From: Polaromonas sp.
GTDB lineage: Bacteria > Pseudomonadota > Gammaproteobacteria > Burkholderiales > Burkholderiaceae_C
Direction of reading: 5' to 3'
DNA length: 64,000 nucleotides
NCBI RefSeq assembly: GCF_029945685.1
Contig: NZ_JAQSDA010000006.1
Location: 1 to 64,000 of the forward strand
Numbering within the stretch: the stretch's first letter is position 1; each line of letters opens with the position of its first letter. Below, piece by piece: positions 14,929-39,272 of this stretch. A program made the translations under genes and the position numbers. The notes under the pieces were generated by a model. That model ran no database searches, was not told the DNA's origin, and saw only the letters and a list, made by a program, of their open reading frames with translations.

Positions 14929-14936
14929 GCCACAAC

Positions 14937-14983
14937 TGTAGAAAGCAAAAGTGCGAAAAATTTCGGAGAAATAGGCCCCAATT
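14937..14983 (-). promoter_or_regulatory. Predicted activator-dependent promoter of virB8-pil operon
   Basis: On the minus strand: AATT (14980-14983), six bases, TATTTCT (14967-14973), 24 bases, TCTACA as -10 box (14937-14942), then eight bases to the virB8 ATG. The same layout with identical spacing occurs before virB11, the relaxase, the 32.8 kb gene and the 36.3 kb gene. No good -35 box is present, as expected for a class II-type activator site covering about -53 to -37. The candidate regulator is the plasmid's FlhDC-like pair; that link is inference. Confidence 0.65.
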
Positions 14984-15010
14984 CGCTGTTTTGTCCCTTT
15001 CTGGCGCCGA

Positions 15011-15044
15011 AAATAAAAAAGCCCACCCTGGTTAGGGGTGGGCT
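15011..15044 (-). terminator. Rho-independent terminator between the upstream transfer genes and virB8
   Basis: A nine-base-pair perfect stem (AGCCCACCC / GGGTGGGCT) with a seven-base loop is followed on the minus strand by a run of six T, then A and more T. It directly follows the stop of the 15061-15477 gene and precedes the virB8 promoter. It therefore separates two transcription units within the transfer region. Confidence 0.85.
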
Positions 15045-15060
15045 CTGGGGCAGTGGTGGC

Positions 15061-15477
15061 TTACGGTCTGTAGCCGCTTTCGAGCCGATCCTGCCAGGAC
15101 TGCTGAGATTCGGCGTCCGACGTTACAGCTTCGTTTTCAGACGCTGCCATCGCAGCCTCGTGCTGCGCTGCATTTTGAGCGAGCAGCTCAGCTTCTTCTC
15201 TCTCCTGGTCCAGCACGCGGGCCTGTTCCTCAAAAGCTGCAGCTTCCGCATGGCCATCCGCAGGTGCCATCTGAACGGCAACAGCCTCACCGTTTGCGCC
15301 CGCCTCATACCCAGTCGAGGGAGTTGAGACGAGAGGCGCCCGCCGCCGTGGCTTGAAAATCTGCCAATGCACGAAGGCAAGTACCAAAGCCCCAAGCAGG
15401 GGGTACATGACGGCGAGCTTGCCAGGCACCAAGAGAACAAGCGCGAAGAGTATTAACCAAATGAGGTTGGCTAGCAT
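15061..15477 (-). CDS. Small membrane protein with acidic/coiled-coil tail
   Basis: A 138-residue protein from ATG 15477, with a good ribosome site (AAGGAG, five bases before). Two hydrophobic segments fill residues 1-42 (LIWLILFALVLLVPGKLAVMYPLLGALVLAFVHW), followed by a basic stop-transfer patch (KPRRR) and a Glu/Ala-rich tail with helix-forming repeats (about 80-125). No family is recognised. It is the last gene of the upstream transfer operon and is followed by a terminator. A cytoplasmic tail on an inner-membrane anchor suggests a structural or adaptor role, but this is a guess. Confidence 0.6.
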   Translation of the reverse strand: MLANLIWLILFALVLLVPGKLAVMYPLLGALVLAFVHWQIFKPRRRAPLVSTPSTGYEAGANGEAVAVQMAPADGHAEAAAFEEQARVLDQEREEAELLAQNAAQHEAAMAASENEAVTSDAESQQSWQDRLESGYRP

Positions 15478-15479
15478 GG

Positions 15480-15812
15480 CTACTCCTTGGAATTTCTTGC
15501 CACGATGGTACGCCACGCAGCTTCCGCGGCGAATGCGTACATTCTCGCGGGCATTTCCAGGAGTTTCACCTTCACCACCTCGTAGATCGCGCATTTGACG
15601 GCGGCCGGGCAACCTCGGCCGACCTTCACCAAGCTTGAGTTCACGACGCGGTGCAGCGAAATCCTCGGCTTCCCGTCTTGCCACTTCCCGTCGACAACGA
15701 TGCTGCCATCTGGGAGATGCCCATCCTTGAGGCGGACGAATCCGCCGGGGACCACAGCGAAATGCATTTTTGTGGCACGAATGTGACCACGCGAAAAAAA
15801 GACCTTTTCCAT
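15480..15812 (-). CDS. Hypothetical small protein in transfer operon
   Basis: A 110-residue protein from an ATG preceded by GGAGTCC at a suitable distance. It is predicted soluble and basic, with strand-rich segments (FAVVPGGFVRLKDGHLPDGSIVV) and two Cys (GCPAAVKC). No known family is recognised. It overlaps nothing and ends two bases before the next gene's start, which suggests co-translation with the membrane protein that follows. Confidence 0.5.
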   Translation of the reverse strand: MEKVFFSRGHIRATKMHFAVVPGGFVRLKDGHLPDGSIVVDGKWQDGKPRISLHRVVNSSLVKVGRGCPAAVKCAIYEVVKVKLLEMPARMYAFAAEAAWRTIVARNSKE

Positions 15813-15977
15813 TTACGGACTCCATGAAATCCGGGACGGAATCCCACAGTGAGGAGACCCCCGGTGGGTTGAACGAGACTAGCTCGGAAGGCTTGAATTA
15901 GGCACAAGCTATGCCATCGAAAACAGTTCGACTATATCGCAAATTCTGGGCGGAGGAAACCGCGGACACTCTTGCTG

Positions 15978-16247
15978 CTATTTAAAGTCTTTAAATGCGT
16001 CAGCCTGGCCCTTCTTCACATTGGCGCTTTGCTCCAGACGAAATTTCATCTGCCCGCCGTGAGCGTTTGCGCAGTTTGCATCGCTCTTCATCGACGCAAC
16101 GCCCTTTTTTATACAAGAGTCAACCACCGCGTTAGCCTCTGCGATGTGGGCAAAGTAGTACTCGACTGTCTTGATATCAGTCTTTTGCTCGCATGCCGAC
16201 AAAAGCGCTAACAACATGCAGCCCAGAATCGAAGTTTTGATACTCAT
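15978..16247 (-). CDS. eexN: EexN-like entry-exclusion lipoprotein
   Basis: An 89-residue lipoprotein from the ATG at 16247, which has an AGGAATTCC ribosome site; an earlier in-frame ATG at 16259 lacks one. The signal sequence ends in a lipobox (LLSAC), so it is probably lipidated. The mature part follows the EexN pattern: a TVEYYFAHIAEANAVVDSC helix, then a Lys-rich segment and a second Cys in the NCANAH motif. EexN proteins of IncN-type plasmids exclude entry of related plasmids. It lies between the AAA+ ATPase and unknown genes, inside the T4SS region as expected. Confidence 0.78.
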   Translation of the reverse strand: MSIKTSILGCMLLALLSACEQKTDIKTVEYYFAHIAEANAVVDSCIKKGVASMKSDANCANAHGGQMKFRLEQSANVKKGQADAFKDFK

Positions 16248-16273
16248 GGAATTCCTCATAAAAGCCGTACTAC

Positions 16274-18202
16274 TCAGTTGATTTTAAGTTGACTTTTTGC
16301 AATTTCAAGTGACTCCCGTTTAACGGGGTTCCCGCGATCGACACCGCCTTTCGCAGTTAGCGTAAGGTTCCACGCTTGCATCAAGATTCCTTGCGCGTCT
16401 GCAATTGAAGAGCCAGTCAGGACATCCGCGACCTCCTCCCACGAAACGTCCATAACCGCGTTCCTTTTTGGGTCAAGGAAGAATGCCTTTGCCATCGCCA
16501 GCAGCGGAGCGTCGCCCGGCTTCTCAAAACGCACCTTCTCAGTGAAGCGGCCCGAGCGAACAACGGCCTCATCCGAGACTTCGGCGAAGTTTGTTGACGC
16601 GATCCACAACAAGTCGTTGATCTTTCCATTCGGACCATCCATCGCGGCAAGCAACTTGTTCGTTGCCGCCTTATACGGGTTAGATGAACGGTCGCCAAGC
16701 AAGTCATCAGCTTCGTCAATGAAGATAATTGCGGGCCTCGCGTTCTGCACCTTTTTTATCGTCTTATCGATAAGGTCCGGATCCCTGGCGAGATCTGATC
16801 CGTGAACAGCAAAGAATGCCCACTTTGTTTCCTTCGCAATCATTCGTGCGGTTTCGGTCTTCCCTGTTCCGGTTGGGCCGTAGAAAAGTACACCGGACGG
16901 CGCCTGGCCTCCAGACTCTTCCATCTCGAACGACCGCCGGACACGGGCGATAAGCCCTTGAATCGTTGCGGCCTGCTGAGGCGGGTAGCTCATTTCGGCA
17001 AATGACTTCGTCGACTCCGGCACGCGGTTGGCCATTCCCTGCTGGCGCCGCAGCATCTCCATAAAGTCGTCAAACGTGAGTTGGGTCCTTTGATGATCCT
17101 TCACGAACTGGGGGATTTGGGTAGGGACACTCAAGATGGTGGCGGAGTTGAACCCGTTCCAACGCTTGGCCAAGGAATCAACAACGCCGTCGGCAACTGA
17201 AACATTGGTCGAATTCTTTGCAATCGACGCGCGCAGCAAGCCCACGCGAGCTTCGAGATCCGGCTTTGGCACTTCGAATACATAGTCGAACCTGCCAGCA
17301 CGTTTCACAGCAGGGTCTATCGCGTCGATGAAGTTAGTCGCAGCGACAAACACGACGCCGCTTCGACGATAGTCGACAAGGTAGGTTAGAAGCCTGTTTA
17401 CCATCGAGTTGGTTTCGGTGAGGAGGGAACTGGAAGTTGCATCTCCCCTGCACGGGAATACGGAGTCGGCTTCGTCGAAGAAGATCAAGCAAGGGGTCCT
17501 AGCGATGGCCTCGTTAAGTTGATCAAAAAGGTTCTGCGGTGCGTCGCCAACCCATTTCGACATCTTCTTGTGAATCGGGATGAACTCAAGTCCCAAGTCG
17601 CCGGCAAGGGCTTTTGCGAGCGATGTCTTGCCGTCCCCCGGCTCGCCGTGGATAAGAATGCCGTTTCGGTCCTTCGTGCCAACGCTATCTAGTCCGGCTT
17701 GGCGAAGTTTCTTCTTGAACTCGGTCATTCCAACGATTGAGCGGAAATCGTTTTCCCATGATGGCGTGATGAACCGTGGAGCCGGCAGCCCAGCTTTGCG
17801 AGCGCGGTACCTTGCGGCAAGCACTTCCCCCGTTGTTGGCAGGGGAGGCTGAGTGGCCGACATATTTTTCCCGCTCAGGCCATGTGCAACCAAGGCTCGC
17901 CTCTTCAAGAACAGTGAGCCCACAGAAGCGACCATCAACGCCGTTCCCGCGGCCAGGAACAGAGCAGCCTCGGTAGAGGCCTTGTAGTGAAACCATGCCG
18001 ACGCGGCTGCAATGGTCATCAGAGCACCGATCGCCATGCTGGCTTGGCCAGCAGACAGGACAAATGCCGAAAGGACCGCCGCGACTAAAAGGATCACCCC
18101 AAAGGCCAACCACTTCATCCACCCGTCCATAGGCAGCGACAGAACAATCGCGCCGGCTACCACTGCGGCTATCGAAGCTGGATTAAAAAGACGATTCATC
18201 AT
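16274..18202 (-). CDS. Membrane-anchored tandem AAA+ ATPase (CDC48/SpoVK-like)
   Basis: A 642-residue protein. Residues 1-110 contain about four hydrophobic segments. Two AAA modules follow: D1 with Walker A GEPGDGKTS and Walker B LIFFDEADSVF (about residues 185-340), and D2 with Walker A GPTGTGKTE and Walker B IIFIDEADDLL (about 435-590). Both have sensor-like ATNF/STNF Asn residues and arginine-finger-like RAGR and RSGR, so both sites look active. No protease domain is fused. The first gene overlap (ATGA) couples it to the amber-split gene upstream. A membrane-bound unfoldase in a T4SS operon could remodel or unfold transferred protein or machine parts; this is inference. Confidence 0.8.
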   Translation of the reverse strand: MMNRLFNPASIAAVVAGAIVLSLPMDGWMKWLAFGVILLVAAVLSAFVLSAGQASMAIGALMTIAAASAWFHYKASTEAALFLAAGTALMVASVGSLFLKRRALVAHGLSGKNMSATQPPLPTTGEVLAARYRARKAGLPAPRFITPSWENDFRSIVGMTEFKKKLRQAGLDSVGTKDRNGILIHGEPGDGKTSLAKALAGDLGLEFIPIHKKMSKWVGDAPQNLFDQLNEAIARTPCLIFFDEADSVFPCRGDATSSSLLTETNSMVNRLLTYLVDYRRSGVVFVAATNFIDAIDPAVKRAGRFDYVFEVPKPDLEARVGLLRASIAKNSTNVSVADGVVDSLAKRWNGFNSATILSVPTQIPQFVKDHQRTQLTFDDFMEMLRRQQGMANRVPESTKSFAEMSYPPQQAATIQGLIARVRRSFEMEESGGQAPSGVLFYGPTGTGKTETARMIAKETKWAFFAVHGSDLARDPDLIDKTIKKVQNARPAIIFIDEADDLLGDRSSNPYKAATNKLLAAMDGPNGKINDLLWIASTNFAEVSDEAVVRSGRFTEKVRFEKPGDAPLLAMAKAFFLDPKRNAVMDVSWEEVADVLTGSSIADAQGILMQAWNLTLTAKGGVDRGNPVKRESLEIAKSQLKIN

Positions 18203-18603: not shown

Positions 18604-18638
18604 GAATCACCTTAGGAATCAAGGTTCGAGTGACAAGC

Positions 18639-18866: not shown

Positions 18867-18880
18867 CGTCGTTCCCCCGG

Positions 18881-20125: not shown

Positions 20126-20128
20126 GGA

Positions 20129-20995: not shown

Positions 20996-21007
20996 GATTT
21001 TCCCCAT

Positions 21008-23853: not shown

Positions 23854-23859
23854 CGCGAG

Positions 23860-24228: not shown

Positions 24229-24245
24229 GGAAAGCTCCCTGGTGG

Positions 24246-25214
24246 TTAAAGATCGGATTGGTACTCAAAGATGAGTTTGGTTGTGTAGCTGCCGTTGGCA
24301 TCAAGGCCTGTCACTTCACGAAGCTCACAAAGGCGAAGCTCGTTTCCCTTCGGCGTCGTCACTTCGGACATGAAGCCGAGGACGTGGGCCGCCGATGCGA
24401 TTCGTTTGCGGTGTGATATGAGCGGGAGGTTTGGCTGGCCTTCGATGCACATGTCCTCCAGCTTTTCCAGAATGCTGGCGGCGTCGTCGGCATGCAGCGT
24501 CGCAACGGTGCCTGGGTGACCGGATTTCGCGGCATAGATGAGGTCATAAGCTTCGCCGCCGCGGACCTCGCCCACGATGATTCGATCGGGGAAGCCGCGC
24601 ATTGCGGACATGATCAGTCGCCGCACCGACACGCCTTGCTCGCTGTCGGCCTCAAAGTAGATGACATTCTCTTGCCGCAAATTCAGCTCGTGAATCGTCT
24701 CGATCACGATCATCCGCTGATCGTCGGGGATCACCGACAAGAGAGAGTTCGCCAAAGTGGTTTTTCCAGACCCTGTACCGCCCGCAAGGAATATGTTCTT
24801 CCTGTCGAGGACCGCGTTGGCGAGGTACTTTGCTACGTCTGGGGTCAACAGGCCCCGGCCGATTAGCTGGTCGAGCGTGAAGACGCTCGATCCAAGCTTT
24901 CGTATCGTGAGGCAAGAGCCCATCACCGCCACCGGCGAAAGCCAAGCTTCTATCCGGAACCCAGGAAGCTTCGCGCTGATGATCTTGTGCCCCTCCGACC
25001 CGCCTACCCCTACCTCCCTATAGCTAATGGAGGCGAGATTGGTGATCGCAGAGGAAATCTGCGCCTCGCTGATGCGGACCGGAACCCGTTGCTTTGGCGA
25101 GCCGTAGCGCTTGACGAAGACCTTGTCGACGCCGTTGACCATAACCTCAGTTAGGTCGGGCGCGCTGAGCAGCTCCATGACGGGAGCCAGGTAATCGAGT
25201 GCCAATGATTGCAT
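24246..25214 (-). CDS. virB11: VirB11/TrbB T4SS hexameric ATPase
   Basis: A 322-residue secretion ATPase. It has Walker A GGTGSGKTTL (about residues 142-151), Asp box (MIVIETIHELNL), Walker B (RIIVGEVRGGEAYDLI) and His box (ATLHADDA). Length and motifs fit TrbB, including the NTD phrase LTEVMVNG. The ATG at 25214 has no ribosome site and follows a predicted -10 box by eight bases, so the transcript is likely leaderless. It is the first gene of the trbB-C-D-E-J-L run. Confidence 0.92.
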   Translation of the reverse strand: MQSLALDYLAPVMELLSAPDLTEVMVNGVDKVFVKRYGSPKQRVPVRISEAQISSAITNLASISYREVGVGGSEGHKIISAKLPGFRIEAWLSPVAVMGSCLTIRKLGSSVFTLDQLIGRGLLTPDVAKYLANAVLDRKNIFLAGGTGSGKTTLANSLLSVIPDDQRMIVIETIHELNLRQENVIYFEADSEQGVSVRRLIMSAMRGFPDRIIVGEVRGGEAYDLIYAAKSGHPGTVATLHADDAASILEKLEDMCIEGQPNLPLISHRKRIASAAHVLGFMSEVTTPKGNELRLCELREVTGLDANGSYTTKLIFEYQSDL

Positions 25215-25222
25215 GGCACAAA

Positions 25223-25269
25223 TTTAGAGGCTGAAGGCCCTCGAAATTTTCTAGAAATACCCCTGAATT
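25223..25269 (-). promoter_or_regulatory. Predicted activator-dependent promoter of virB11-trb operon
   Basis: Minus strand: AATT (25266-25269), six bases (CAGGGG), TATTTCT (25253-25259), 24 bases, TCTAAA (25223-25228), then eight bases to ATG. Every spacing equals that of the virB8 promoter. Sequence similarity extends through GCGAATT and AAATTTCG around the core. Confidence 0.65.
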
Positions 25270-25303
25270 CGCCCTTTTCTCCTTTTTTTCAAAGAAGCGA
25301 GGT

Positions 25304-26538: not shown

Positions 26539-26544
26539 GAGTAT

Positions 26545-28455
26545 TTATTTTTGAAATTCGAGAATAGGAATCCGGCCCTTGAATATCTTGGCCCGATTGA
26601 CAACAGCGACATACTGGAGGTCCGGCATCGACATGAGTACGCTTCGCGGAATCATTACCCGATTCTTTTCGCTGAAACTAATGCTCTTTGTTGCTGAGTA
26701 CTCCAGTCCCACGTCTTCTGTCTTCTGGCCAGATCCCTGCGAACGATTAGCCGAGACAACATCGACCTCACCAAACTTGTCTGAGATCAGGTCAAGCGTG
26801 TCGGTGTCCTGGGTGGCCCCAACCAGCAGGTTGTTCATGTTCGCCATGAAACGCTTCGCCGCGTTGACGTCTCCGCCCATCTTCGTGACGATGTCGCTGA
26901 AAGCCTGAAAGGCGAGATACACATGAATGCCAGCGCCCCGACCCTTGTTGCAGATCTCGATAAGCGGCGCACATATTGCGTTCGATCCTTCATCAATCAG
27001 AAGGTGAACGCGCTTCTGACGCTTCTGGCTACTGTCGGAATAGTTGTAAAGAGATCCAGCCTCCGCTGCCAGGTCGGAGATGGCAAAGGCAGCGATGGCT
27101 GAGGCGACCGCAGGATCCGAAAGCGCGTCAGTACCCATGTAGAAAATCTTTCCCTCCTGGATGACCTTCCCCATGTCATAAATCGGGCGAAGATCTGCCG
27201 GATCGTCGTAATCGGGCGAGAGCATCCCCCGGAGGTCACCAGTCGAAAGCTTTGTCAGCGTTGGCGTGAGCGCAACAATCATCTTTCCGAACCACTCGCG
27301 ATTCGACTCAAGGTTTCCGATTAGGCTGTCGATCTCGGCCGGTTTGGGACCTTGATACTCTTTGAAAAAGGCGATGAGCGCCAGCAGCCGGGGTTCGGCC
27401 TTCTCTGCGAAAGTCGACTTGGCCCGACCGCCCTTTCCGTTCTGCGCCGACGTGATCGACTGGATTTTCTCGTTGATCTGCGCGGAGAAATTCTCGACAC
27501 GCGGAGTTAGCCACTGGACGAGAACGTCTTCGCACAATTTCTCAGAGTTGTCCAATGCTCGGATGTGGTCAAGGATCGATGCGATCGTCGGGCGGCGGCC
27601 GATGATCTTCATGCAGGCGACGATGCTTGTGATAACTTGCCAGCAAAAATCAATGAAGTTGTTGCCTTCTTCACCGGCACTGATGATCTGAGTGATGCGG
27701 GAGGCGACCTGCGACTCGCGCTCCCAGTTTTTCAGTCCGTCGAAGCGGACCCCTTGACTGGGAAACGCCGGATGGAAACTGATGAATCGCGATGGGTCCC
27801 CGCACGCGGCGGCTGCATCCTGTGCGATCTTGCGGAGATCTTTCTCCCCCTTCGGGTCAATGATGATCACGGTGTCGCCGGCGAGCGCGAATTGATAGAC
27901 CAATAGCTTGTACAAGCTCGTCTTGATTGCACCTGTCGTCGCGGCGATTGCCGTGTGGCCGGCCAGGCCAGTAAAGGGAACAATGACGTCTTTTTCTGTG
28001 CCGAGGCCGTGCACCCACTGCCGCCCCTTCATGGCCCGGGGGTCAAACTTCACACCGTTGAGTTTCAGGAACCAGTTTGGCGGATAGATTTCGGCTGAAT
28101 CACGTTTCAGAATGTCGTAGGCTTGCTGCGTATGGCTGGGTTGCCACTCCCAACCCCATCCGAGCCAGACGTTGTCCTGCAGCTCCTTCTGAATGCCGTC
28201 GATCTGCGCCGTGCTGACTTTGTCGATTGCGGCACCAGACAACCGTACTTTGTATCCCCACACCTGCGCGGCCTGGTAGTAGCGCAGAGCAGTCATGAAC
28301 ATGGCAAAGAACAGCATCATCGCCATTGCCGTGCCTGACAAGTTCGAAAATAGCGCCAATCCAACGATCCAGAGGACGGCGACGCTCCAGGCGAGCGCTG
28401 CCCTTCCCTCGAACACTGGTCGAAAAAGCGAATCAGCTTTCAACTCACGCATCAT
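26545..28455 (-). CDS. traD: TraD/VirD4-type coupling protein
   Basis: A 636-residue protein with two N-terminal membrane helices (about 22-60) and a TraD/TraG ATPase domain. The segments IIIDPKGEKDL, HLLIDEGSNAI (Walker B) and the C-terminal EYSATKSISFSEKNRVMIPRSVLMSMPDLQYVAVVNRAKIFKGRIP fit SXT/TOL-type TraD. The Walker A position reads ATTGAIKTS, keeping the Lys-Thr but lacking both glycines of the usual pattern (see findings). It starts at the relaxase stop (overlap), consistent with relaxosome docking. Confidence 0.88.
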   Translation of the reverse strand: MMRELKADSLFRPVFEGRAALAWSVAVLWIVGLALFSNLSGTAMAMMLFFAMFMTALRYYQAAQVWGYKVRLSGAAIDKVSTAQIDGIQKELQDNVWLGWGWEWQPSHTQQAYDILKRDSAEIYPPNWFLKLNGVKFDPRAMKGRQWVHGLGTEKDVIVPFTGLAGHTAIAATTGAIKTSLYKLLVYQFALAGDTVIIIDPKGEKDLRKIAQDAAAACGDPSRFISFHPAFPSQGVRFDGLKNWERESQVASRITQIISAGEEGNNFIDFCWQVITSIVACMKIIGRRPTIASILDHIRALDNSEKLCEDVLVQWLTPRVENFSAQINEKIQSITSAQNGKGGRAKSTFAEKAEPRLLALIAFFKEYQGPKPAEIDSLIGNLESNREWFGKMIVALTPTLTKLSTGDLRGMLSPDYDDPADLRPIYDMGKVIQEGKIFYMGTDALSDPAVASAIAAFAISDLAAEAGSLYNYSDSSQKRQKRVHLLIDEGSNAICAPLIEICNKGRGAGIHVYLAFQAFSDIVTKMGGDVNAAKRFMANMNNLLVGATQDTDTLDLISDKFGEVDVVSANRSQGSGQKTEDVGLEYSATKSISFSEKNRVMIPRSVLMSMPDLQYVAVVNRAKIFKGRIPILEFQK

Positions 28456-30290
28456 CAGACCTTTGCGTCCGTGGCCATTCCCACCTTCGCCGCGAAGTCA
28501 AGCTTGACCGCAAAAGCGAGGCGAGGCGTCGGCGAATCCGAGAACACCACCTTGGAGACAAGTGCCACACCCTTCTCGTTCGGGTTGCGTGCAATGACGC
28601 CTACCCGCTCAAGCGGGTTCAGGAGATCTGCGAGGTCATATCCTGCAGTGTTGTTCAGCCAGTTCACGCACACCGCTACGCCCCAGTCGAGCACCTTCAC
28701 CCGATCACCGCGATAGGCAAGGCTTTGCTCAATGATCAGCCCGAGGGCATTTGCAGTGTCGTCCGTGTCCTTGACCCTCAGTTTCGCGAGCCAGTCGGGT
28801 GGGACCCGCTTCCCTGGGTGAGGCTCAAACTCGGCGTCGGCAATGGCAGCTCCGGCCGGCTGCGACGCGGCCGCTGTCGACGGGGCACTTTCGGGATCCG
28901 GCACCACGACCTTCTCCGCCTTCGGCGGAGCAACCGTCCGAGGTTGTGGCCCGCCAACCAGGACCGCCCCGGGCTGCTGCTCCGCGGTTGGCGGAACTTG
29001 GCGCGGTGCGGAGGCAGTCTCGGTTGCCCGAGTTGCTGCCAGTGCCAGCTGTTCGGCTTGCGCCTCTGCCATAGCCTTGCCAAAAGGCGAAGTGATCGGT
29101 TCGACGCTTAGGTGTCCCAGAAGCACGGCGGGTTCCTTGAACCGCATGGCTGATACGACGCTCCTGTCTTCACCTACGACAATGTCATGCACCCACACGC
29201 CGGTGTCCTTCCCGATGATCACCCCGCTTTGACCAAGCATCTCTGCAAGTGTCACCGACGAGTGCGGCATCCCTTGGAGCTTCCTCTCACCGAAAACCTT
29301 GATGACGTCCTTCAGGCCACGCGGCCACGCGACGTACAACCCGTCGGACCCCCAAAACAGGCATCCCGCTGGGTCGTTGGTTTTCCACAGGCCTGACTCG
29401 ACGAGTTCCCGCATGGCGTTGAGGAAATGCACTTCGAATTGAGTGCCCACAGTGAGCCGCCCGAAGCGGGAGGCGTGCTGCAGCGCCTCAACTTCCTTCA
29501 CCCGGCCGATTACCCCCTTGAGAACTGCGCCAAGGATGCTGTCTGAAGAGAGCATTTCGCGGGTCGCTGCCACGTTCAGATCACGAATGATCTGCGGATC
29601 TGTCTGCGACAGCCAGTTCATGATCTCCGCGGGCACTATTGCGGAAAGGATTGAAGCGCCCTCGGCGCCAGTCACCCGTGCCTTCTCGTGCCAAATGACA
29701 AAGTAGCGATCAGCGCCTCGTTCGGTCAGCCAGGTCAGAAGGGGGACGCCATACTTTGGCCACTGCGTTCCTCCAGCGTCCGTCACAGTCATTTGCCCGA
29801 CTGGCAAATGAAGTTGGGAAAGCAATCCGGCCAGAAATGCTGAATAGCGCCACGCGCCAATCGTCCTGTGTCGCTCTTCGATTGACGATTCGGGCACGAA
29901 GATTTTCCCCTCTGCCGCCTGCCTGGCCATGATGGCGATATCCAGGCTCATGTTGAAGAGACCCCCTGGGCCACTGTAGTGCGTGGAGGATGACGCTGGA
30001 AGAAGGTGGATTTGGCTGGCAAGCAGCCGGATGGGGGTGAGGTAGAGCCGCTCGAACTCGCCCGATGTTCCACCAGCGATCTCGACCAGACGCTTCAACT
30101 TCCGTTCCGCGCCGTGCAGCAACTGCTCGGCCTCGACGACGGGTAGGCCAGTGTCGACTGGAGGGTAAATGGCCACGAGTTCGGCCTTCGACGCCTGCCA
30201 GCGCGCACTGTTAGCGAGCGTTGCGCGTTGCTCCACAACTGGAGTTGCTGGCGGCGCTGCCTTGCGGAAAATGAAATTGAGGAAGGACAT
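28455..30290 (-). CDS. MobH-family relaxase (TraI_2/HD type)
   Basis: A 611-residue protein from ATG 30290 (a TTG at 30299 is in frame). Residues about 20-310 form the TraI_2 domain with the HD-like histidine motif region STHYSGPGGLFNMSLDIAIMA, followed by WRYSAFLAGLLSQL. A central Pro/Ala/Gln-rich linker (about 400-490) leads to a C-terminal winged-helix-like domain (about 500-600). MobH relaxases nick oriT and pilot the strand in SXT, IncH and IncC-type elements. It is directly upstream of traD. The motif here reads HYSGPGG in place of the more usual HHHPGG-type sequence. Confidence 0.85.
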   Translation of the reverse strand: MSFLNFIFRKAAPPATPVVEQRATLANSARWQASKAELVAIYPPVDTGLPVVEAEQLLHGAERKLKRLVEIAGGTSGEFERLYLTPIRLLASQIHLLPASSSTHYSGPGGLFNMSLDIAIMARQAAEGKIFVPESSIEERHRTIGAWRYSAFLAGLLSQLHLPVGQMTVTDAGGTQWPKYGVPLLTWLTERGADRYFVIWHEKARVTGAEGASILSAIVPAEIMNWLSQTDPQIIRDLNVAATREMLSSDSILGAVLKGVIGRVKEVEALQHASRFGRLTVGTQFEVHFLNAMRELVESGLWKTNDPAGCLFWGSDGLYVAWPRGLKDVIKVFGERKLQGMPHSSVTLAEMLGQSGVIIGKDTGVWVHDIVVGEDRSVVSAMRFKEPAVLLGHLSVEPITSPFGKAMAEAQAEQLALAATRATETASAPRQVPPTAEQQPGAVLVGGPQPRTVAPPKAEKVVVPDPESAPSTAAASQPAGAAIADAEFEPHPGKRVPPDWLAKLRVKDTDDTANALGLIIEQSLAYRGDRVKVLDWGVAVCVNWLNNTAGYDLADLLNPLERVGVIARNPNEKGVALVSKVVFSDSPTPRLAFAVKLDFAAKVGMATDAKV

Positions 30291-30300
30291 GACACCCAAG

Positions 30301-30347
30301 TGTGATGTCCCGGGCCGACGATTCTGGGGACGAAATCACCCCGAATT
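30301..30347 (-). promoter_or_regulatory. Predicted activator-dependent promoter of relaxase-traD operon
   Basis: Minus strand: AATT (30344-30347), CGGGGT, GATTTCG (30331-30337), 24 bases, ATCACA (30301-30306) in the -10 position, ten bases to ATG 30290. The -10 is the weakest of the set. A related GGGTGAAATCG element lies just upstream, so two activator half-sites may be present. Confidence 0.5.
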
Positions 30348-30375
30348 GAGCGATTTCACCCGTTCTGCGAGATTT

Positions 30376-30969
30376 TTAAGCTGCTTTTGCGGGCCGAGGT
30401 GGCGCGGCATCAACTTTGGGCGCGGCCTTCCGGTTTGCCGTTGCCAGCAAATCGCAGAATACACAATCAATCGACGTTACAGAGATGTGCTTGGTCAGCA
30501 AGTTCCTGGATCCGCAGGAAGCGCACCTGTGCAAACGGCTCTCGCGGGTCTCAATTTCGAGTGCAACGACGTACCAGTGATCGAACGAAATCAGTTGTTT
30601 TTCATCGGTGCCGAACGCGGTCTTGCGCCGGTACAGGCGGTACACCACGACGAGAGCCGACTCAAAGGCGACCCCTGCACTTCGCAGATCGCTGAATTGG
30701 GTGTACAGCGAGTTCAGATTAGCGCGGTACGTAAGGCTGCGGTACATCAGCACGACCTGCTTGCATGAGGGTTGAGTTCCCCCCGGGGCGCGCAGGTCGC
30801 TCGTTTCGTACATGCGCCGTGCAGCAATTTCGGCGTATTGATGCGGTACAAGCTGCGCTATTGTTGCGGGGCGGGCTCTAAAGCTGACCAGTTCCCGAAT
30901 ACTGGTGATTTGCTCGGGCGGCAGCACGGCCACGAGCGTTTCTCGCTTCAGTCTACTTGCGGATTGCAT
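30376..30969 (-). CDS. FlhC-like transcription activator subunit
   Basis: A 197-residue protein with the FlhC layout: a helical N-terminal region (RPATIAQLVPHQYAEIAARRMYE) and a C-terminal zinc site. The four Cys (RCASCGS ... DCVFC) have CxxC-16-CxxC spacing, the same spacing as the four zinc ligands of E. coli FlhC. A Lys/Ala-rich tail follows. It starts three bases past the flhD-like stop, so the two are translated together. In SXT (SetCD) and IncC plasmids (AcaCD), FlhDC-type pairs are master activators of transfer genes. This pair heads the transfer region here and is the best candidate for binding the repeated promoter motif. Confidence 0.82.
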   Translation of the reverse strand: MQSASRLKRETLVAVLPPEQITSIRELVSFRARPATIAQLVPHQYAEIAARRMYETSDLRAPGGTQPSCKQVVLMYRSLTYRANLNSLYTQFSDLRSAGVAFESALVVVYRLYRRKTAFGTDEKQLISFDHWYVVALEIETRESRLHRCASCGSRNLLTKHISVTSIDCVFCDLLATANRKAAPKVDAAPPRPAKAA

Positions 30970-30972
30970 AGC

Positions 30973-31275
30973 CTAGCGCCCCGGTCCGTATTTCAAACGA
31001 GCAGCTGACCTTAGATGGGCCTGCCCCTGATCTACCGGCAGGATTGACGCATTGCGCAGGGTGTCGTGATCGATGACGGGCTGTAGCAGGAAAGTCCCAA
31101 GCCCTGCCACCTTCTCCAGCTCGGCCGAAGGGACCGCGAGTGTCTGAGCAAGGAACTGGCTGGAGATATTCAGTCGCAGGCACAAGGCGTCGCCCTGTGA
31201 ACTGTGGCGAGTGACAATGTTCAAAAACTGCCGGTTTAATGCGGCGATGTCTGCATCGAGAACTTCAGATGACAT
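30973..31275 (-). CDS. FlhD-like transcription activator subunit
   Basis: A 100-residue helical protein resembling FlhD: ALNRQFLNIVTRHSSQGDALCLRLNISSQFLAQTLAVPSAEL follows the FlhD dimerisation/DNA-contact pattern (YLLLAQRL...A...RLGI...A..LA.L). Length is close to FlhD (about 116). It is followed immediately by the flhC-like gene, the same order as flhDC. Flagellar genes are absent, so a transfer regulator role is much more likely than motility control. Identification rests on pattern and pairing, not on alignment. Confidence 0.72.
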   Translation of the reverse strand: MSSEVLDADIAALNRQFLNIVTRHSSQGDALCLRLNISSQFLAQTLAVPSAELEKVAGLGTFLLQPVIDHDTLRNASILPVDQGQAHLRSAARLKYGPGR

Positions 31276-31317
31276 GGATAGATCCTGGAAGGTAATGTGC
31301 CGAGTCGGCTATGACAT

Positions 31318-32069: not shown

Positions 32070-32696
32070 GTGACAAAGAAAAAAATGTGGCATAAAAATC
32101 TCCTTGCAGTGCTGAGCCGTCACGGCTATGACCCCCATGCAGCCGAAACGCTCCAGGAACTTCACGCCAGGACCGGTGTATCTGCCGGGCGCCTTACCTT
32201 GCTTCTAACCGGCAGTGCTGAAGCAACCATTCACGACATAGAGTTGGTGGCAGCAGAACTGAATATTCCCCCAGGTGAGCTGTTGAACGCAGATCCAAGC
32301 TTTCTGCGTGTTTACTCGATCGATGGATCTAATCCGATCACCGTCGCACTTCCGCCCAATCTTCTGGCTTACATTGCTGCGGCTGCCGGGGGGGCGTTGA
32401 TGTATGCGGACTCCAATGATGCGAGCTACAGCGGTATCGAGGGTGACACTGTCACGATCTGCAGCAGGGGCCTGAAGGACCTTGTGTCGGGATCGCTGTA
32501 TCTGATGGAGACTGAATCGGCGCGCTTCATTCGTCGCTGCGTCGAAGCGAGGCCCAGTCGCAAGGAAGCGGTGTTCGCGAATGGCCCAGGTCCGGACGCC
32601 GAAAGACTGGTAGTGAACTGCGAACCGGTGCAGGTTGTATCGGCAACCTCTCCACTCATCATGGGCCAGGTCCTTTGGACAATCGACAGGGTCTAG
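32070..32696 (+). CDS. CI/LexA-like repressor, apparently non-cleavable
   Basis: A 208-residue protein. A GTG at 32070 or ATG at 32085 are both possible starts. Residues about 5-70 form an HTH domain of the CI type (LLAVLSRHGYDPHAAETLQELHARTGVSAGRLTLLLTG). The C-terminal part resembles a peptidase S24 fold (DSNDASYSGIEGDTVTI ... SLYLMETESARFIRRCVE). A Ser is available, but the Lys expected in the vKR-like strand is Arg, so self-cleavage seems unlikely. It is divergent from the flhDC-like operon, the same logic as SetR with SetCD in SXT. Confidence 0.7.
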   Translation: MTKKKMWHKNLLAVLSRHGYDPHAAETLQELHARTGVSAGRLTLLLTGSAEATIHDIELVAAELNIPPGELLNADPSFLRVYSIDGSNPITVALPPNLLAYIAAAAGGALMYADSNDASYSGIEGDTVTICSRGLKDLVSGSLYLMETESARFIRRCVEARPSRKEAVFANGPGPDAERLVVNCEPVQVVSATSPLIMGQVLWTIDRV

Positions 32697-32731
32697 CCTT
32701 CATCTGAGGGGTGAAACGGGGGAAATAGGCT

Positions 32732-32778
32732 AATTCGGGGCCATTTCCCAAATATTTTCTGGGTGTCTGCCTTCTAAA
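32732..32778 (+). promoter_or_regulatory. Predicted activator-dependent promoter of the 32.8 kb operon
   Basis: Plus strand: AATT (32732-32735), CGGGGC, CATTTCC (32742-32748), 24 bases, TCTAAA (32773-32778). The start codon follows 25 bases later with a TAGGAG ribosome site, so this transcript is not leaderless. It is the only member of the family on the plus strand, showing the motif tracks with promoters and not with one strand. Confidence 0.65.
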
Positions 32779-32803
32779 GTTAGCTGAACTTTAGGAGCGC
32801 TCT

Positions 32804-33625
32804 ATGGCACGAAAACAGGAAGTAAAACTCGTCCCCGCACAACGCAATGAGGACTCACTCAACGAGCTGAAATTCGGCGACGGATCCGTGATGTCATTGA
32901 AAGACCTGTTCGGCAAGAAGTTCGACGGCTCCGTCATCACGAGAGAGTTCGAGCTGATCAACAAGCCCGTGCAGAACTTCATCCGCCGCGACTTCATCTT
33001 CCTGTCGCGGTGCTTTTACCTCGGCACGGTGCTCGGGGAGAACAAGAACGTCGACGCCGGCCGGATGGCGTCCCTGGACACGGAGCTGTTCAATATTTTC
33101 ACCAGCGTGCAGGAACTTGTCCGCAAGCGCCTCAACGAGATCACGCGTCTCCTCCAGCTGCACGGTGCTGACAAGGAGGAAGTTCACACCGCCCGTCCGA
33201 TGCTCTACCGGGTACCAATCATTCACCCTCGAGCCTATGAATTTCTGAACCTCCTGCGTGAAGTGGATTCCCTACACTCTCTGCGCGAGCACGCATGGCT
33301 TCTCGGCCTCATCAACCCGCAACAGCGCGCCGACAACTTTCGTGAAACCATGAAGGCCGTCCGCCGTATCGGTTTTGTCACACGCATGAATCGCATCGCC
33401 ATGTGGAAAATGCTTCAGCGTGCGGCGGAAGAAACCGGCGGGCAAGAAGGTGAAGACCTCCGCCAACTCGCCACCGAGCAGGCCCAGACGCTTGCTGCCG
33501 AGCGCAAGGTGGATCCTGAGATCGCCGGCAGCGTCAGCAGCGAGGCAGGGCTTCCTTCTGAACCGAGCAGCGACGCGCTGCCAGGCGAAGCCCGCAGGCC
33601 CGAGGCTGTAGCTGCCGCAGAATAG
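32804..33625 (+). CDS. Conserved ICE/plasmid protein (possible AcaB/PFL_4669-like)
   Basis: A 273-residue soluble protein with a TAGGAG ribosome site. The central part (LSRCFYLGTVLGENKNVDAGRMASLDTEL ... MLYRVPIIHPRAYEFLNLLREVDSL) resembles the integrating-element family TIGR03761/AcaB only loosely. The tail (about 215-273) is Glu/Ala/Pro-rich and probably disordered. It is followed three bases later by the helicase gene. If AcaB-like it could be a regulatory DNA-binding protein; I regard this as tentative. Confidence 0.55.
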   Translation: MARKQEVKLVPAQRNEDSLNELKFGDGSVMSLKDLFGKKFDGSVITREFELINKPVQNFIRRDFIFLSRCFYLGTVLGENKNVDAGRMASLDTELFNIFTSVQELVRKRLNEITRLLQLHGADKEEVHTARPMLYRVPIIHPRAYEFLNLLREVDSLHSLREHAWLLGLINPQQRADNFRETMKAVRRIGFVTRMNRIAMWKMLQRAAEETGGQEGEDLRQLATEQAQTLAAERKVDPEIAGSVSSEAGLPSEPSSDALPGEARRPEAVAAAE

Positions 33626-33627
33626 CC

Positions 33628-35592
33628 TTGAGCTTCTCGGACCAACAAACGCAGCTGATCTGCGTCCAGGGGCATGCTGTTGCCTTGGCTGGTCCAGGGT
33701 CGGGAAAAACCTCCACAATCATTGAAAAGATTGCCCGGCTGCTGCAGCAACCGGGCAACTCCGTCGTGGCGTGCTCGTTTACACGGGAGGGTGCTGAGGA
33801 GATCAGGCGCCGGCTGACCAAGCGGATTGGGGACGCAGCAATGGCGAGCGCCGACATCCGTATCGGGACCTTCCACAGCGTCATAGCGGAGCATCGAAAG
33901 ACCTTTGGCCGTAGCCCCAAGATGATCTCTCCCGCGCACCAGATGAAGACTCTGGCGACCGTTGCGCGAGAACATGGCATGTCGCTGGGCGACGTGATCC
34001 CAGAATTTGAGGAAATCAAGCACCAGTTGTCGCCGCCTGACGCCAACTCGCTCCCAGCCTGGTTCACGGACTACGAAAGCCACCTGAAGACCCTGGGTGC
34101 GATAGACCTGCAGGATCTCATCCGAACTACGGTCCAGCAGATGGCGCTTTCCGCGAAACTTCCCGAGCCACCCGATTCGCCGCCTGACGACGAAGAACCA
34201 ATGCCCCTGCGCCTTGCGTTCGCAGCCGCGGCATATCGGGACGCTTTCAACAAGAAGCGGGAGGAACTGAGCCTACGAATCGAAGCTTGCCGGCGGAAAG
34301 GCAACACGCAGGAAGCAGTGCAGCTGCAGGCAGAACTGACCAGGACATCAAACGAGGGCGGGGCGCTGCCGCTACTGCCTGCGACGCACCTGGTGATCGA
34401 CGAATCGCAGGACAATGACGAACTCCAGTTCGCCCTTGCAACGCTGCACGCCCTGGCCGGCGTTACCACCACGCTGATCGGCGACGACGATCAGACGATC
34501 TATGAATGGCGAAGAGCCATGGGCTATCCAGGCTTGCTCTCGTTTGCCAACACTTTCAACGCGACCGTCATCACGCTGGGCGACAACTACCGGTCGCTCC
34601 GCACGATAGTCGAAGCCGCGGACCAGCTCATCCGCCACAACAACGGCCACCGCATCGAGAAAGTGTTCGTGGCCAAGCGCGGTCCTGGCGGGTCGGTGCT
34701 GGCCGAGCAGACCAACACCGAATGGGGCATGGTCGAGCTATCCGCGAAGATCATCCTTGAGCACACACAAGAATGCGCGGACCCTAGCGGCCGATTCAAA
34801 AGGCAGGTTGAGACAGGTCAGTTCGGGATACTTAGTCGCAACAATTTCATATTGGACGACATCGAGGCCGAGCTGATGCGAGAGGGAGTGCGGTACGTGC
34901 GGCAGGGGACTTCGATTCTCCAGAAGGAAGCTGCAAAGTACATCTATGAACTGCTCGGTGCCGTGTACGGGTTCGACATAAAGGGCATTAGCTTCCTCCT
35001 GCAGATCCATGGCGTGAGCGCCTCGATGACGAACAACGTATGCCGGGAGATCACTGGCCACGAGAAGGACTTTGTGAATGGAAGGCTGGGAAATTTCCAG
35101 CGATTCGGCGAGGGTTCCGACGCAATTGATCGGACGGTCGGATGGCTAGTTGCGCGACGAGCCGAGGTCGACGAGAAGACAAAGTCGAGGGAAGTCATCG
35201 GCAGCGTGTGCGCCGTTGTACGGGAGGTGCTCCATCCAGCGGGGCCATGGGACAGGAAGAACATCCAGAATCGAAAGTGCATTGCCGCCGTTCAACGGTG
35301 TTTGGAGCGGATGAACCAACCGGTGCTGACCCGTGTGGCAATGCTCCAGAATCGTGATTTCAAGGGCGCAGAGAGAAACGCCGTGAGCCTGATGACCTTC
35401 CACGGGAGTAAGGGCTTGGAGTTCAACAAGGTGATCCTGCTCGGAGCCGATGACGACGTATGCCCTGGCAAAGGTGAGTTCCAGTCCGAGCGACGCTTGT
35501 TCTACGTGGCTGTTACCCGGGCGAAGGACTCAATGCTGGCGCTCTACAGCGGGAAGCCTTCGCGGTACCTGGCCGAGATGGGTCTTACTTAA
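33628..35592 (+). CDS. UvrD/Rep-type superfamily 1 DNA helicase
   Basis: A 654-residue helicase starting at TTG 33628, two bases after the upstream stop. SF1 motifs appear in order: Q-motif (FSDQQTQLICVQG), Walker A (GPGSGKTSTI, about residues 21-30), motif II (HLVIDESQDND), motif III (IGDDDQTIYEWR), motif IV (LGDNYRSL), motif V (SLMTFHGSKGLEFNKVILLGAD) and motif VI (LFYVAVTRAK). Polarity should be 3'-5'. It may assist rolling-circle/leading-strand events in plasmid transfer or repair. A tail of extra domains seen in UvrD is absent. Confidence 0.9.
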   Translation: MSFSDQQTQLICVQGHAVALAGPGSGKTSTIIEKIARLLQQPGNSVVACSFTREGAEEIRRRLTKRIGDAAMASADIRIGTFHSVIAEHRKTFGRSPKMISPAHQMKTLATVAREHGMSLGDVIPEFEEIKHQLSPPDANSLPAWFTDYESHLKTLGAIDLQDLIRTTVQQMALSAKLPEPPDSPPDDEEPMPLRLAFAAAAYRDAFNKKREELSLRIEACRRKGNTQEAVQLQAELTRTSNEGGALPLLPATHLVIDESQDNDELQFALATLHALAGVTTTLIGDDDQTIYEWRRAMGYPGLLSFANTFNATVITLGDNYRSLRTIVEAADQLIRHNNGHRIEKVFVAKRGPGGSVLAEQTNTEWGMVELSAKIILEHTQECADPSGRFKRQVETGQFGILSRNNFILDDIEAELMREGVRYVRQGTSILQKEAAKYIYELLGAVYGFDIKGISFLLQIHGVSASMTNNVCREITGHEKDFVNGRLGNFQRFGEGSDAIDRTVGWLVARRAEVDEKTKSREVIGSVCAVVREVLHPAGPWDRKNIQNRKCIAAVQRCLERMNQPVLTRVAMLQNRDFKGAERNAVSLMTFHGSKGLEFNKVILLGADDDVCPGKGEFQSERRLFYVAVTRAKDSMLALYSGKPSRYLAEMGLT

Positions 35593-35670
35593 TCCCGAAG
35601 CGCAGGTGGCGCGGCGCACGGCCAGCTCCGCTGGCCCGGGCAGGTGACGGCTTTCCCGGCCGTGAGCGGA

Positions 35671-36237
35671 TCAAAGGCGTTCGGCGTAGGGAACCGCCCT
35701 GCCACTCAGCATGCCGCCCTCATACGCGCGTTGGCGCCCATACGCCACCGTTCCCTTGATGCTGCCGCTGGCAGCAAGGACGAGCAGACCCTTCGTCACG
35801 ATCGCGTCGCCGTCCTTCTCAGGGGCGGATACCTTGCCGGCAACGACCACGTACTCGTCAGACTCAATAGACCCCACGACCTCGCCACCTGGCTTCACGA
35901 TCACGGGAGCGGACCCGGCCATGATTCTGCCCTCGACAGTTCCGGAAATGACCACGGCGTTGCCGTTCGACACCAGGTCGGCCTTGATGACAACGCCGGC
36001 AGGAATCAGCAGGACTTTCTCCGCATCAATGCTTTTGATGAACTGCTCAACCTCGAGGCTCAGTGGCGCTTCCGGGGCGATGACGGTCTCTTCCCTTGTG
36101 TCGGCGCTGTGCACAACCGCCAGCGCTGGCGTTGTGCGGCTGCCGGACAGCTCCGCAGGCGCGCCGGACGAGCTGGCACCTGCGGAATCCGGTCCGGATT
36201 CAATGTGACCGGGGAATGAGGAAGTGGTTGCGTTCAT
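35671..36237 (-). CDS. Bactofilin-like polymer-forming protein
   Basis: A 188-residue protein with an AAAGGAG ribosome site. The N-terminal 60 residues are Ser/Ala-rich. Residues about 75-175 carry the bactofilin beta-helix pattern of short repeated strands (LIPAGVVIKADLVSNGNAVVISGTVEG, IVKPGGEVVGSIESDEYVVVAGKV, LAASGSIKG). Bactofilins assemble into filaments without nucleotide and often localise cell-wall or pilus machinery. A plasmid copy next to a membrane-anchored Pro-rich protein could serve as a scaffold for the transfer apparatus. Confidence 0.78.
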   Translation of the reverse strand: MNATTSSFPGHIESGPDSAGASSSGAPAELSGSRTTPALAVVHSADTREETVIAPEAPLSLEVEQFIKSIDAEKVLLIPAGVVIKADLVSNGNAVVISGTVEGRIMAGSAPVIVKPGGEVVGSIESDEYVVVAGKVSAPEKDGDAIVTKGLLVLAASGSIKGTVAYGRQRAYEGGMLSGRAVPYAERL

Positions 36238-36256
36238 GGGTTCTCCTTTGGGTGAA

Positions 36257-37312
36257 TTAATTGAGTACGAGCTGTTCGCCCTTGGACGTCACCGCCGTTG
36301 AGGCCGCCTTATCGACAGACTTCAGGGTTGAACCATCGGGAAGCTGTTGGCCAACCTTCACGATCATGGGTAGCCGCGTCGTAGGGTTTGTGACGACGAT
36401 GCTCGCGGGATCCTGAACGGCAAGCATGCGGACACTACTCTTTGCACCAGGTGCGGGCGTGCCGGCCTTCGCGGTCAGGACAACGGGCCCGGACGCGGCG
36501 GCGGGTGCCTGGACGACAGGCGCGGAAGTGTTGCCCTGAGCCGCAGTGGGTTTTGCGAGCTGCAATGCCGGCTCATTGAACACTGCAATTTTGCTGTCCT
36601 CGGGTGAAGCGGGAGCTTGTCCCTTCGGTTGCGCGACCGGTGCGGGCGCTTTACGTTCAGGGACGACCGCGGCAGCGACAGGACTTGGCATTGGGAGCGC
36701 CAGACGCGCTGGCAATGGCGCCGCGGGTTGGGACGGTGGTGGCGTGACTTTGCCGGAACTGACGTTCGACTGCGTGACCGGAGGTTTCGCTGCGGCCGCT
36801 GGCGCGGTGTTGGGTGCGGGGGCCAATGCCTTTTGGGCCGTCGCTGGTGCTTGCTGGGCTGGTGGTGGCGGCGACAGATCTGCGCGCTGAGCCGATGCGC
36901 CATCCTCCAGGGGTTTGGCGTCAGCCTCAACGATGGGCGGAGGCAATTTACTGAGGTCGATTGGCTCGGACCCGTATGAAGAGGGTGCAATGCTGATCGA
37001 TTGCGGATGGATCGGTTGGTTTGTAGAAGGTGGCGCGAACGGCAATCCGGCCGTGAATGGCGGAAGGCTTGTGAAACCAGTTGCGATGAGCGCCCCCGCG
37101 AGCAGCGCGGCCGAGACCTGGAAACTACCTCGTGTCCAGAACCGGCTTGCGATCAGCCGTGCCCACCGTGATGCGCGTTGCCCGGAGGACTCTATCTTCC
37201 AATTTCCGGTGCCTTCATCCTGCAGCAGGTATTGGCCGGGCTTGGCATTGTGCTCAAGAGCCATCCTTCCAAGGGGTAGCGAGATTTGTAGTTGGTGCAC
37301 GGTTGATTTCAT
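36257..37312 (-). CDS. Bitopic Pro/Ala-rich membrane protein with PilP/GspC-like C-terminus
   Basis: A 351-residue protein from ATG 37312; a GTG at 37339 is upstream in frame. A cytoplasmic basic N-terminus is followed by one membrane helix (about 64-82, FQVSAALLAGALIATGF), a very long Pro/Ala/Lys linker (about 90-300) and a small C-terminal beta domain (PASIVVTNPTTRLPMIVKVGQQLPDGSTLKSV...GEQLVLN). The last resembles the HR-type domain of PilP/GspC, which docks secretins. It is followed by the bactofilin gene and is preceded by the shared promoter motif. Role as an envelope-spanning linker is inferred. Confidence 0.6.
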   Translation of the reverse strand: MKSTVHQLQISLPLGRMALEHNAKPGQYLLQDEGTGNWKIESSGQRASRWARLIASRFWTRGSFQVSAALLAGALIATGFTSLPPFTAGLPFAPPSTNQPIHPQSISIAPSSYGSEPIDLSKLPPPIVEADAKPLEDGASAQRADLSPPPPAQQAPATAQKALAPAPNTAPAAAAKPPVTQSNVSSGKVTPPPSQPAAPLPARLALPMPSPVAAAVVPERKAPAPVAQPKGQAPASPEDSKIAVFNEPALQLAKPTAAQGNTSAPVVQAPAAASGPVVLTAKAGTPAPGAKSSVRMLAVQDPASIVVTNPTTRLPMIVKVGQQLPDGSTLKSVDKAASTAVTSKGEQLVLN

Positions 37313-37359
37313 GGTGAGTGTGGGGACGGATGCGCCCACACGGGCTGCTTTGAATTGAT

Positions 37360-37406
37360 TTTTGAGCGAAACCGCTCACGCAAATCCGGGGAAATGTGCC
37401 TGAATT
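37360..37406 (-). promoter_or_regulatory. Predicted activator-dependent promoter of the 36.3 kb gene
   Basis: Minus strand: AATT (37403-37406), CAGGCA, CATTTCC (37390-37396), 24 bases, TCAAAA (37360-37365). Predicted transcription start is about 30 bases before ATG 37312. An inverted repeat GAGCG/CGCTC lies in the spacer. Confidence 0.55.
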
Positions 37407-39261: not shown

Positions 39262-39272
39262 CATGGGTGCGC

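Follow-up and report, generated by a model that had tools for sequence, protein, structure and literature searches.

The window analysed here comprises the first 64 kb of the 320-kb contig C6 (NZ_JAQSDA010000006.1) of a Polaromonas sp. assembly of 4.74 Mb. It belongs to a plasmid whose transfer genes include those for a MobH relaxase, a TraD coupling protein, VirB8 and a VirB11-like ATPase, together with an adjacent pair of flhD-like and flhC-like genes. Five sites in this region, all but one of them on the minus strand, share the exact motif AATT-N7-ATTTC, and they precede virB8 (14928), virB11 (25214), mobH (30290), an AcaB-like gene (32804) and a gene for a 360-amino-acid (aa) protein (37339, start uncertain). 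An initial annotation had described five such stretches as the promoters of a candidate transfer regulon, and all of them are read at the positions and on the strands that it gave. All five copies are intergenic relative to the assigned genes; a mechanical open reading frame (ORF) without an assignment, at 30169-30768 on the plus strand, overlaps the mobH site.

The exact motif occurs in the window only at these five places. The rest of contig C6 has one further copy, at 205288, which is without the G-rich core, and the whole assembly has 25, the five of the window included. In 150 simulated 64-kb windows (first-order Markov model) AATT-N7-ATTTC was found 0.45 times on average and at most twice, as the earlier claim of improbability would predict, and the fuller AATTSRGG-N3-ATTTC 0.007 times on average and at most once. 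When the spacing between AATT and ATTTC is varied from N0 to N30 in the window, N7 gives five matches, N5 gives four and no other spacing more than two; of the N5 matches, three are the same sites on the opposite strand, which indicates a second arm. Matrices built with one operon left out and run over the 320 kb gave the held-out site fifth rank, immediately below the training sites, in all five trials, with scores of 20.8-31.9 for the held-out sites and 12.5-15.2 for the best non-site. Gibbs sampling of the 130 nucleotides (nt) 5' of the five genes, which were picked because of their sites, returned precisely the five sites (z of 11.5 at width 16 and 15.3 at width 26, with 20 shuffles per width).

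The putative operator is longer than AATT-N7-ATTTC and is best described as a 29-nt interrupted inverted repeat, GGNGAAAW-N16-ATTTC. In all five sites an arm reading GGNNAAAW ends 5 nt 5' of AATT, with a G before AAA in four of them, and the repeat consists of GGNGAAAW and ATTTCNNN, 16 nt apart. In this register, which was first spotted by eye, 32 of 40 dyad positions match in the window against 10.5 ± 4.7 over 74 offsets. In the sister plasmid NC_007950 (Polaromonas sp. JS666 plasmid 2) 28 of 40 match, against 10.0 ± 4.3 over 74 offsets. A general self-dyad permutation test is weak (p 0.105), and the count at the fixed register gives the clearer signal. The core had been recognised correctly in the initial annotation, which missed the left arm and so gave too short a unit.

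Downstream of each repeat a predicted -10 hexamer starts 27 nt after ATTTC, at fixed spacing. The boxes had been noticed before, yet a register 2 nt further downstream fits better: TACAGT, TAAATT, CACACT, TAAAGT and AAAAAT give 19 of 30 matches to TATAAT, compared with 15 of 30 at the earlier register, in both plasmids. The mobH hexamer CACACT is the poorest of the five (3/6). No -35 hexamer is prominent (best TTGACA sum 14/30 in the window and 15/30 in the sister plasmid), in keeping with the promoters without a -35 box that had been proposed. With a predicted +1 seven bases past the -10, the operator would lie at about -68 to -40 and not, as first placed, at -53 to -37; for virB8 and virB11 it lies at exactly this distance from the ATG. 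The layout is that of a class II promoter with a weak -10 and no -35 hexamer, as judged from the sequence, and in this respect the earlier geometry is retained.

At virB8 and virB11 the predicted +1 is the A of the ATG itself. A -10-like hexamer 5-9 nt before the ATG, with no Shine-Dalgarno sequence, is found at 13 of 26 starts and at 23 of 300 mechanical control ORFs, a control that includes spurious ORFs. The 26 starts are those of mobH, virB11 or its positional counterpart, and virB8 across related plasmids, and they exclude the sister virB8, the Hydrogenophaga PBL-H3 mobH (TTG start), traW and all acaB and 360-aa gene starts. The mobH of the window, with its poor -10, falls outside this pattern. 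The counts suggest that transfer mRNAs may be leaderless.

Conservation of the sites can be followed in one relative. Megablast against the plasmid collection returned a single record, NC_007950, with 79.3% identity over 49% of a 17-kb query. All five sites stand there at orthologous operon starts, each 16-nt core being identical to that of its partner, which supports the transfer regulon of the initial annotation; the entire record holds exactly five matches to the operator pattern. Between the two plasmids 80 of 80 core positions are identical, 34 of 40 in the left arm and 39 of 40 in the -10 stretch (offsets 40-47), compared with 31 of 60 at offsets 26-37 (per-position sum) and 119 of 225 far upstream; the comparison is ungapped, and indels depress the upstream figure. 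Two of the five sister sites lie within an annotated coding sequence, since the annotated virB8 and 360-aa gene starts are upstream of the site. We take these starts to be misplaced, because the promoter-like -10 is conserved and the corresponding window frames lack any start codon 5' of 14928 and 37339.

The pattern AAAWN5AATTSRGGN3ATTTC, built after seeing the ten sites, is present in 2 of 399 family genomes, namely the window's own genome (G000) with its five sites and one other (G782) with a single match in coding-like DNA, bordering mechanical ORFs. The scan of the assembly that had been suggested as a check finds the strict operator pattern at the five plasmid sites and nowhere else. A Paraburkholderia plasmid, NZ_CP022992, has one match similar to that of G782, and 64 viral contigs have one match each, which we take as chance. 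Among the records examined the exact operator is found in one other plasmid, NC_007950, and no mobilisable island with the motif was seen among the genomes, plasmids and viral contigs searched. A looser sixth copy that had been proposed at 39245-39261 did not hold up, as it has no sister counterpart in the loose list and no GGNGAAAW left arm; it is also outside the top 12 matches of a sister-derived matrix. Read by eye, it lies in an inverted repeat of its own, CGTCTTTTTGA...TCAAAAAGACG, at 39237-39283.

The candidate activator is encoded by the adjacent flhD-like and flhC-like genes, which stand directly before mobH-traD in both the window and NC_007950. The FlhD-like protein is recognised from its structural model, which has an FlhD-like fold, with FlhD chains heading both the VIA and the Foldseek lists. 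The FlhC-like protein resembles FlhC weakly by sequence: its profile matches PDB 2avu_E (E 0.0026) and 8j56_C (E 0.018), and four Cys are invariant in all eight aligned sequences. No relatives of it were found in the genome-contig and viral-contig collections, and a search of 399 genomes of the order, a subset of a larger group, gave its own genome and one weak match with 27% identity. The flhD-like gene has no operator copy upstream, in either the loose list or the matrix scans. The AcaB-like gene does have a site, which is conserved in NC_007950, where the orthologous protein is annotated as AcaB family. A helix-turn-helix (HTH) gene lies divergent from the flhDC-like genes, and by analogy with SetR and Acr its product is possibly a repressor.

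Based on these data, we consider it probable that a single class II transfer regulon, under the control of the plasmid FlhD/FlhC-like pair, has the five sites as its operators. The initial annotation had already named this pair as the likely activator, and the FlhD-like fold, the FlhC-like sequence, the left half-site described below and the site of the acaB-like gene all point the same way. In the mechanism that we propose, the two proteins would probably form a complex on the 29-nt repeat, which would sit just 5' of the -35 region and reach towards it, recruiting sigma-70 RNA polymerase to the weak TANANT-like -10 located 27 nt past ATTTC. The relaxase/coupling-protein operon, the two VirB/pilus operons, the 360-aa gene/bactofilin operon and the acaB-like/helicase operon would then be activated together. 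By analogy with IncC plasmids, the flhDC-like genes may be subject to feedback from the AcaB-like protein, and the product of the divergent HTH gene may keep the circuit off.

Such circuits are known from other mobile elements, and the comparisons that follow are limited to the excerpts of the cited papers that were available. The experimentally known operators of FlhDC-like transfer activators are those of AcaCD, whose promoters are also used by SgaDC, and of SetCD; in both systems the promoters are class II, with a weak -10 and no conserved -35 (PMC4542580). In IncC and IncA plasmids AcaCD is an FlhDC-family pair that serves as master activator of transfer from a class II position (PMC4207636), with a common motif before relaxase and mating-pore genes (PMC4207636) and before acaB (PMC11493245); acaB of IncC is thus an AcaCD target, and the acaB-like gene of the window likewise has a site. 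The AcaCD site differs in being built on GCCC-NAAAN-GGGC (PMC4207636), and the present system differs in its VirB/type IVb-pilus apparatus, in its betaproteobacterial plasmid and in having the pair directly before mobH, whereas the known pairs are near traG, lysozyme-like, srpRM and mobI genes (PMC4542580). A homology of the two motifs was considered on a by-eye resemblance and rejected: a matrix comparison with the eight sites of Table 1 in PMC4207636 gave p 0.13 (2000 column permutations), and p 0.25 in the forward orientation alone. Because of this value, and because the gene context differs from that of traG, lysozyme and mobI, we do not regard the sites as part of the AcaCD regulon proper. 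SetCD of the SXT/R391 integrative and conjugative elements is similar in its FlhDC-like activator, in promoters that have a weak -10 and lack a conserved -35, and in a circuit that includes a repressor gene (SetR). It is different in that the element carries int/xis and that the SetCD motif is reported to be unlike those of AcaCD and FlhCD (PMC4542580). AqaCD, AsaCD and SgaCD are further FlhCD-like pairs on mobile elements, those named in the excerpt being from Enterobacteriaceae and Vibrionaceae, with no betaproteobacterial pair among them (PMC4542580). The same review expects that more pairs will prove to recognise motifs unrelated to these, and that finding such motifs would bring new hitchhiking genomic islands to light (PMC4542580). 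Among the matches listed in a search of largely open-access literature, no title deals with FlhDC-like transfer regulation in betaproteobacterial plasmids; one of the listed papers, PMC2907700, names both FlhDC and Polaromonas. The best explanation for the five sites is a transfer regulon of the AcaCD/SetCD kind, with its own operator, in a betaproteobacterial MobH plasmid.

The operator also resembles the flagellar one. The FlhD4C2 box is AAYGSSNNAAATAGCG-N10-12-CGCTATTTNNSSCRTT (PMC9962212), and it shares with the plasmid operator an inverted repeat with AAAT/ATTT cores, the plasmid left half-site fitting the half-box AAYGSSNNAAATAGCG. It differs in that the AAAW-N16-ATTT spacing of the plasmid is 2-4 nt shorter, and that the plasmid operator has a right half and a central AATTSRGG of its own. 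Compared with this half-box, whose consensus is that of E. coli (PMC9962212), the five left arms match at 54 of 70 positions, and three of the five single sites reach at least 11 of 14. Non-ORF DNA of the contig gave 35.0 ± 2.5 with a maximum of 47, composition shuffles gave 38.0 ± 2.3, none of 20000 draws reached 54 in either control, and the reversed consensus gave 45. A second inverted half-site at N10-12 was not found in the window sites, where the right half matches at 7-9 of 14 positions. The AcaCD and SetCD motifs are stated to be unrelated to the flagellar motif in the excerpts of PMC4207636 and PMC4605294, and the FlhDC-like left arm seen here is therefore notable.

This resemblance raises the question of whether the host's chromosomal flagellar FlhDC drives the promoters and so couples transfer to motility. 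Several points weigh against the plasmid pair as activator. The FlhC-like protein scores below the family cut-offs, both in Pfam (E 3.9e-5, 23.9 bits against 27) and in NCBIfam (E 1.2e-5, 25.2 bits against 216), and host contig C16 encodes both flagellar proteins at full score (FlhC 293.7 bits, FlhD 131.8 bits), at C16:107824-108693 of G000, so that two FlhDC-type systems coexist in this organism. The excerpt of PMC4542580 describes the Pfam FlhC and FlhD models as unsuitable for SetC and AcaC. Control by the host protein is improbable in our view, as the strict pattern is confined to plasmid sites and the plasmid has its own diverged pair directly 5' of mobH. In the assembly, E. coli-type boxes with N10 and N11 spacings gave counts per strand close to those of the reversed control (11 against 10 and 9 against 9), so that they do not reveal the host FlhDC's own site. 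Another option, which we rate as equally unlikely, is that a different plasmid regulator, the AcaB-like or the HTH protein, binds the motif. Each of their genes adjoins one site, and in IncC plasmids AcaB is a transfer activator (PMC10954446). The FlhDC-type left half-site would be left unexplained by such binding, the IncC acaB gene is itself an AcaCD target, as is proposed for its counterpart here, and two plasmids of Azospira and Sulfuricystis (below) have ATTTC sites at three operon starts with no AcaB match, although their AcaB may be too diverged.

The opposite sign of control can also be imagined, in that the dyad would be a repressor operator that silences the transfer operons in the resident plasmid. 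HTH repressors commonly have inverted-repeat operators. Yet the repeat lies 27 nt 5' of the -10 at fixed spacing and no -35 hexamer follows it, which is the layout of an activator site, and conservation covers the operator and the -10 stretch but not the intervening DNA; we regard silencing as very unlikely. That the sites are chance matches, or arose by recent duplication of a single stretch, is next to impossible: nothing was found in favour of it, and it is contradicted by the simulated counts, by the leave-one-out ranks and by the five copies, each of which is conserved with its own ortholog while the flanks differ from one copy to another.

The regulon driven by the plasmid pair can be compared with other MobH plasmids. 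A MobH protein search gave 1122 plasmid records, of which the sister and eight of the best non-IncC ones were examined. In six of these eight an FlhC-family annotation stands directly before mobH; the Rhodoferax plasmid has at that place a gene annotated as FlhD followed by one without a name, and Hydrogenophaga BPS33 has two unnamed genes, FlhC-like by position only. With Pfam FlhC at E 0.01, seven of nine whole records, the sister included, gave a match. The Paraburkholderia plasmid NZ_CP022992 carries a diverged FlhC before mobH and a second, full-scoring FlhC at 269264-269776 (292.4 bits). Gibbs sampling was run per plasmid on three to four operon starts with 20 shuffles, at widths 16 and 26, with genes chosen from the annotations. 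It gave z of 8.4 and 6.0 for Azonexus, 9.4 and 13.1 for Azospira, 8.2 and 16.0 for Sulfuricystis, and 2.9 and 8.3 for Hydrogenophaga BPS33, which is convincing at width 26 only. Four of the eight plasmids, of three lineages (L022, L023, L024 and L025), thus appear to have a shared motif of their own at transfer operon starts; Rhodoferax, Paraburkholderia, JS666 plasmid 1 and Hydrogenophaga PBL-H3 gave no convincing motif in this sampling (z 0.3-2.4). In Azospira and Sulfuricystis, both of which have an FlhC-like gene before mobH, the promoter-proximal half CGGCGGCATTTC occurs exactly three times per whole record, namely where the mobH, transglycosylase and traW operons start. This half resembles CGGGGCCATTTC of the window acaB site, by eye only, and in the Azospira plasmid, the one examined for this, the best -10 is also 27 nt after ATTTC (12/18). 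Neither whole record has an AcaB match at E 0.01, AcaB being detected in just three of the nine records; the "acaB" genes of Azonexus and Rhodoferax, named from their position beside the helicase, have no AcaB match either.

Table 1. Predicted operators, -10 hexamers and genes of the putative transfer regulon, in window coordinates.
Feature	Position	Strand	Remarks
Operator, virB8-virB9-virB10/pil operon (GGACAAAACAGCGAATTGGGGCCTATTTC)	14968..14996	-	-68 to -40 of virB8 ATG; core identical in NC_007950
Predicted -10 TACAGT	14935..14940	-	Predicted +1 = 14928, A of virB8 ATG
Operator, virB11 operon	25254..25282	-	-68 to -40 of virB11 ATG; virB2, virB3, virB4 by synteny with NC_007950
Predicted -10 TAAATT	25221..25226	-	Predicted +1 = 25214, A of virB11 ATG
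Operator, mobH-traD-DUF4400 operon	30332..30360	-	Left half AACGGGTGAAATCGCT, 12/14 vs E. coli FlhDC half-box
Predicted -10 CACACT	30299..30304	-	mobH ATG at 30290
Operator, acaB-like/uvrD operon	32719..32747	+	Left half AACGGGGGAAATAGGC, 12/14 vs E. coli FlhDC half-box
Predicted -10 TAAAGT	32775..32780	+	
Operator, 360-aa gene/bactofilin operon	37391..37419	-	Nearest to perfect dyad, GGGGAAAT-N16-ATTTCCCC
Predicted -10 AAAAAT	37358..37363	-	
FlhC-like gene, 197 aa, candidate activator subunit	30376..30969	-	Profile matches, alignment
FlhD-like gene, 100 aa, candidate activator subunit	30973..31275	-	
AcaB-like regulator gene	32804..33625	+	Pfam AcaB E 9e-5, 22.8 bits, below cut-off 27
UvrD-type helicase, directly after acaB-like	33628..35592	+	
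HTH regulator, possible repressor	32070..32696	+	Pfam HTH_26 E 6.7e-4, 20.3 bits, below cut-off 22
mobH relaxase	28455..30290	-	Pfam TraI_2; NCBIfam MobH above cut-off
traD coupling protein	26545..28455	-	
virB11-like ATPase	24246..25214	-	
virB8	14248..14928	-	
360-aa gene downstream of fifth site	36257..37339	-	GTG start uncertain; similarity to sister protein from about codon 13
Bactofilin, directly after 360-aa gene	35671..36237	-	Pfam Bactofilin E 4.9e-12

Some other features of the region can be mentioned (Table 1). A terminator-like hairpin at 15018-15046 on the minus strand lies just 5' of the virB8 operator, and an operon boundary is therefore likely there. The bactofilin, a cytoskeletal protein, is unexpected in a transfer regulon. 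At 49968-53788 the plasmid backbone carries a cluster of ubiquitin-like, E2-like, JAB and ThiF genes (PRTRC type), which is also found in NC_007950. The NC_007950 region has iscB genes (L013 13335-14771 and L016 48715-49653), one of them in the transfer/pilus operon, where it separates tcpQ from pilN.

A wider reading, which we put forward tentatively, is that betaproteobacterial MobH megaplasmids share FlhDC-like activators whose operators have diverged in each lineage while promoter geometry and targets stayed largely fixed, with a flagellar-type half-site kept in the window and several operons leaderless. If this is true, each lineage would have a private on-signal for mating. Flagellar and conjugative master activators might then be linked, and host motility might have a way to influence transfer. 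For one betaproteobacterial plasmid group the analysis provides operators that are concrete and can be tested, and for three further lineages it gives evidence that they have their own; the motif can serve as a tag for finding islands that are mobilised by such plasmids. The resemblance between the plasmid operator and the flagellar FlhDC box bears on the question of how a regulator of motility was turned into one of mating.

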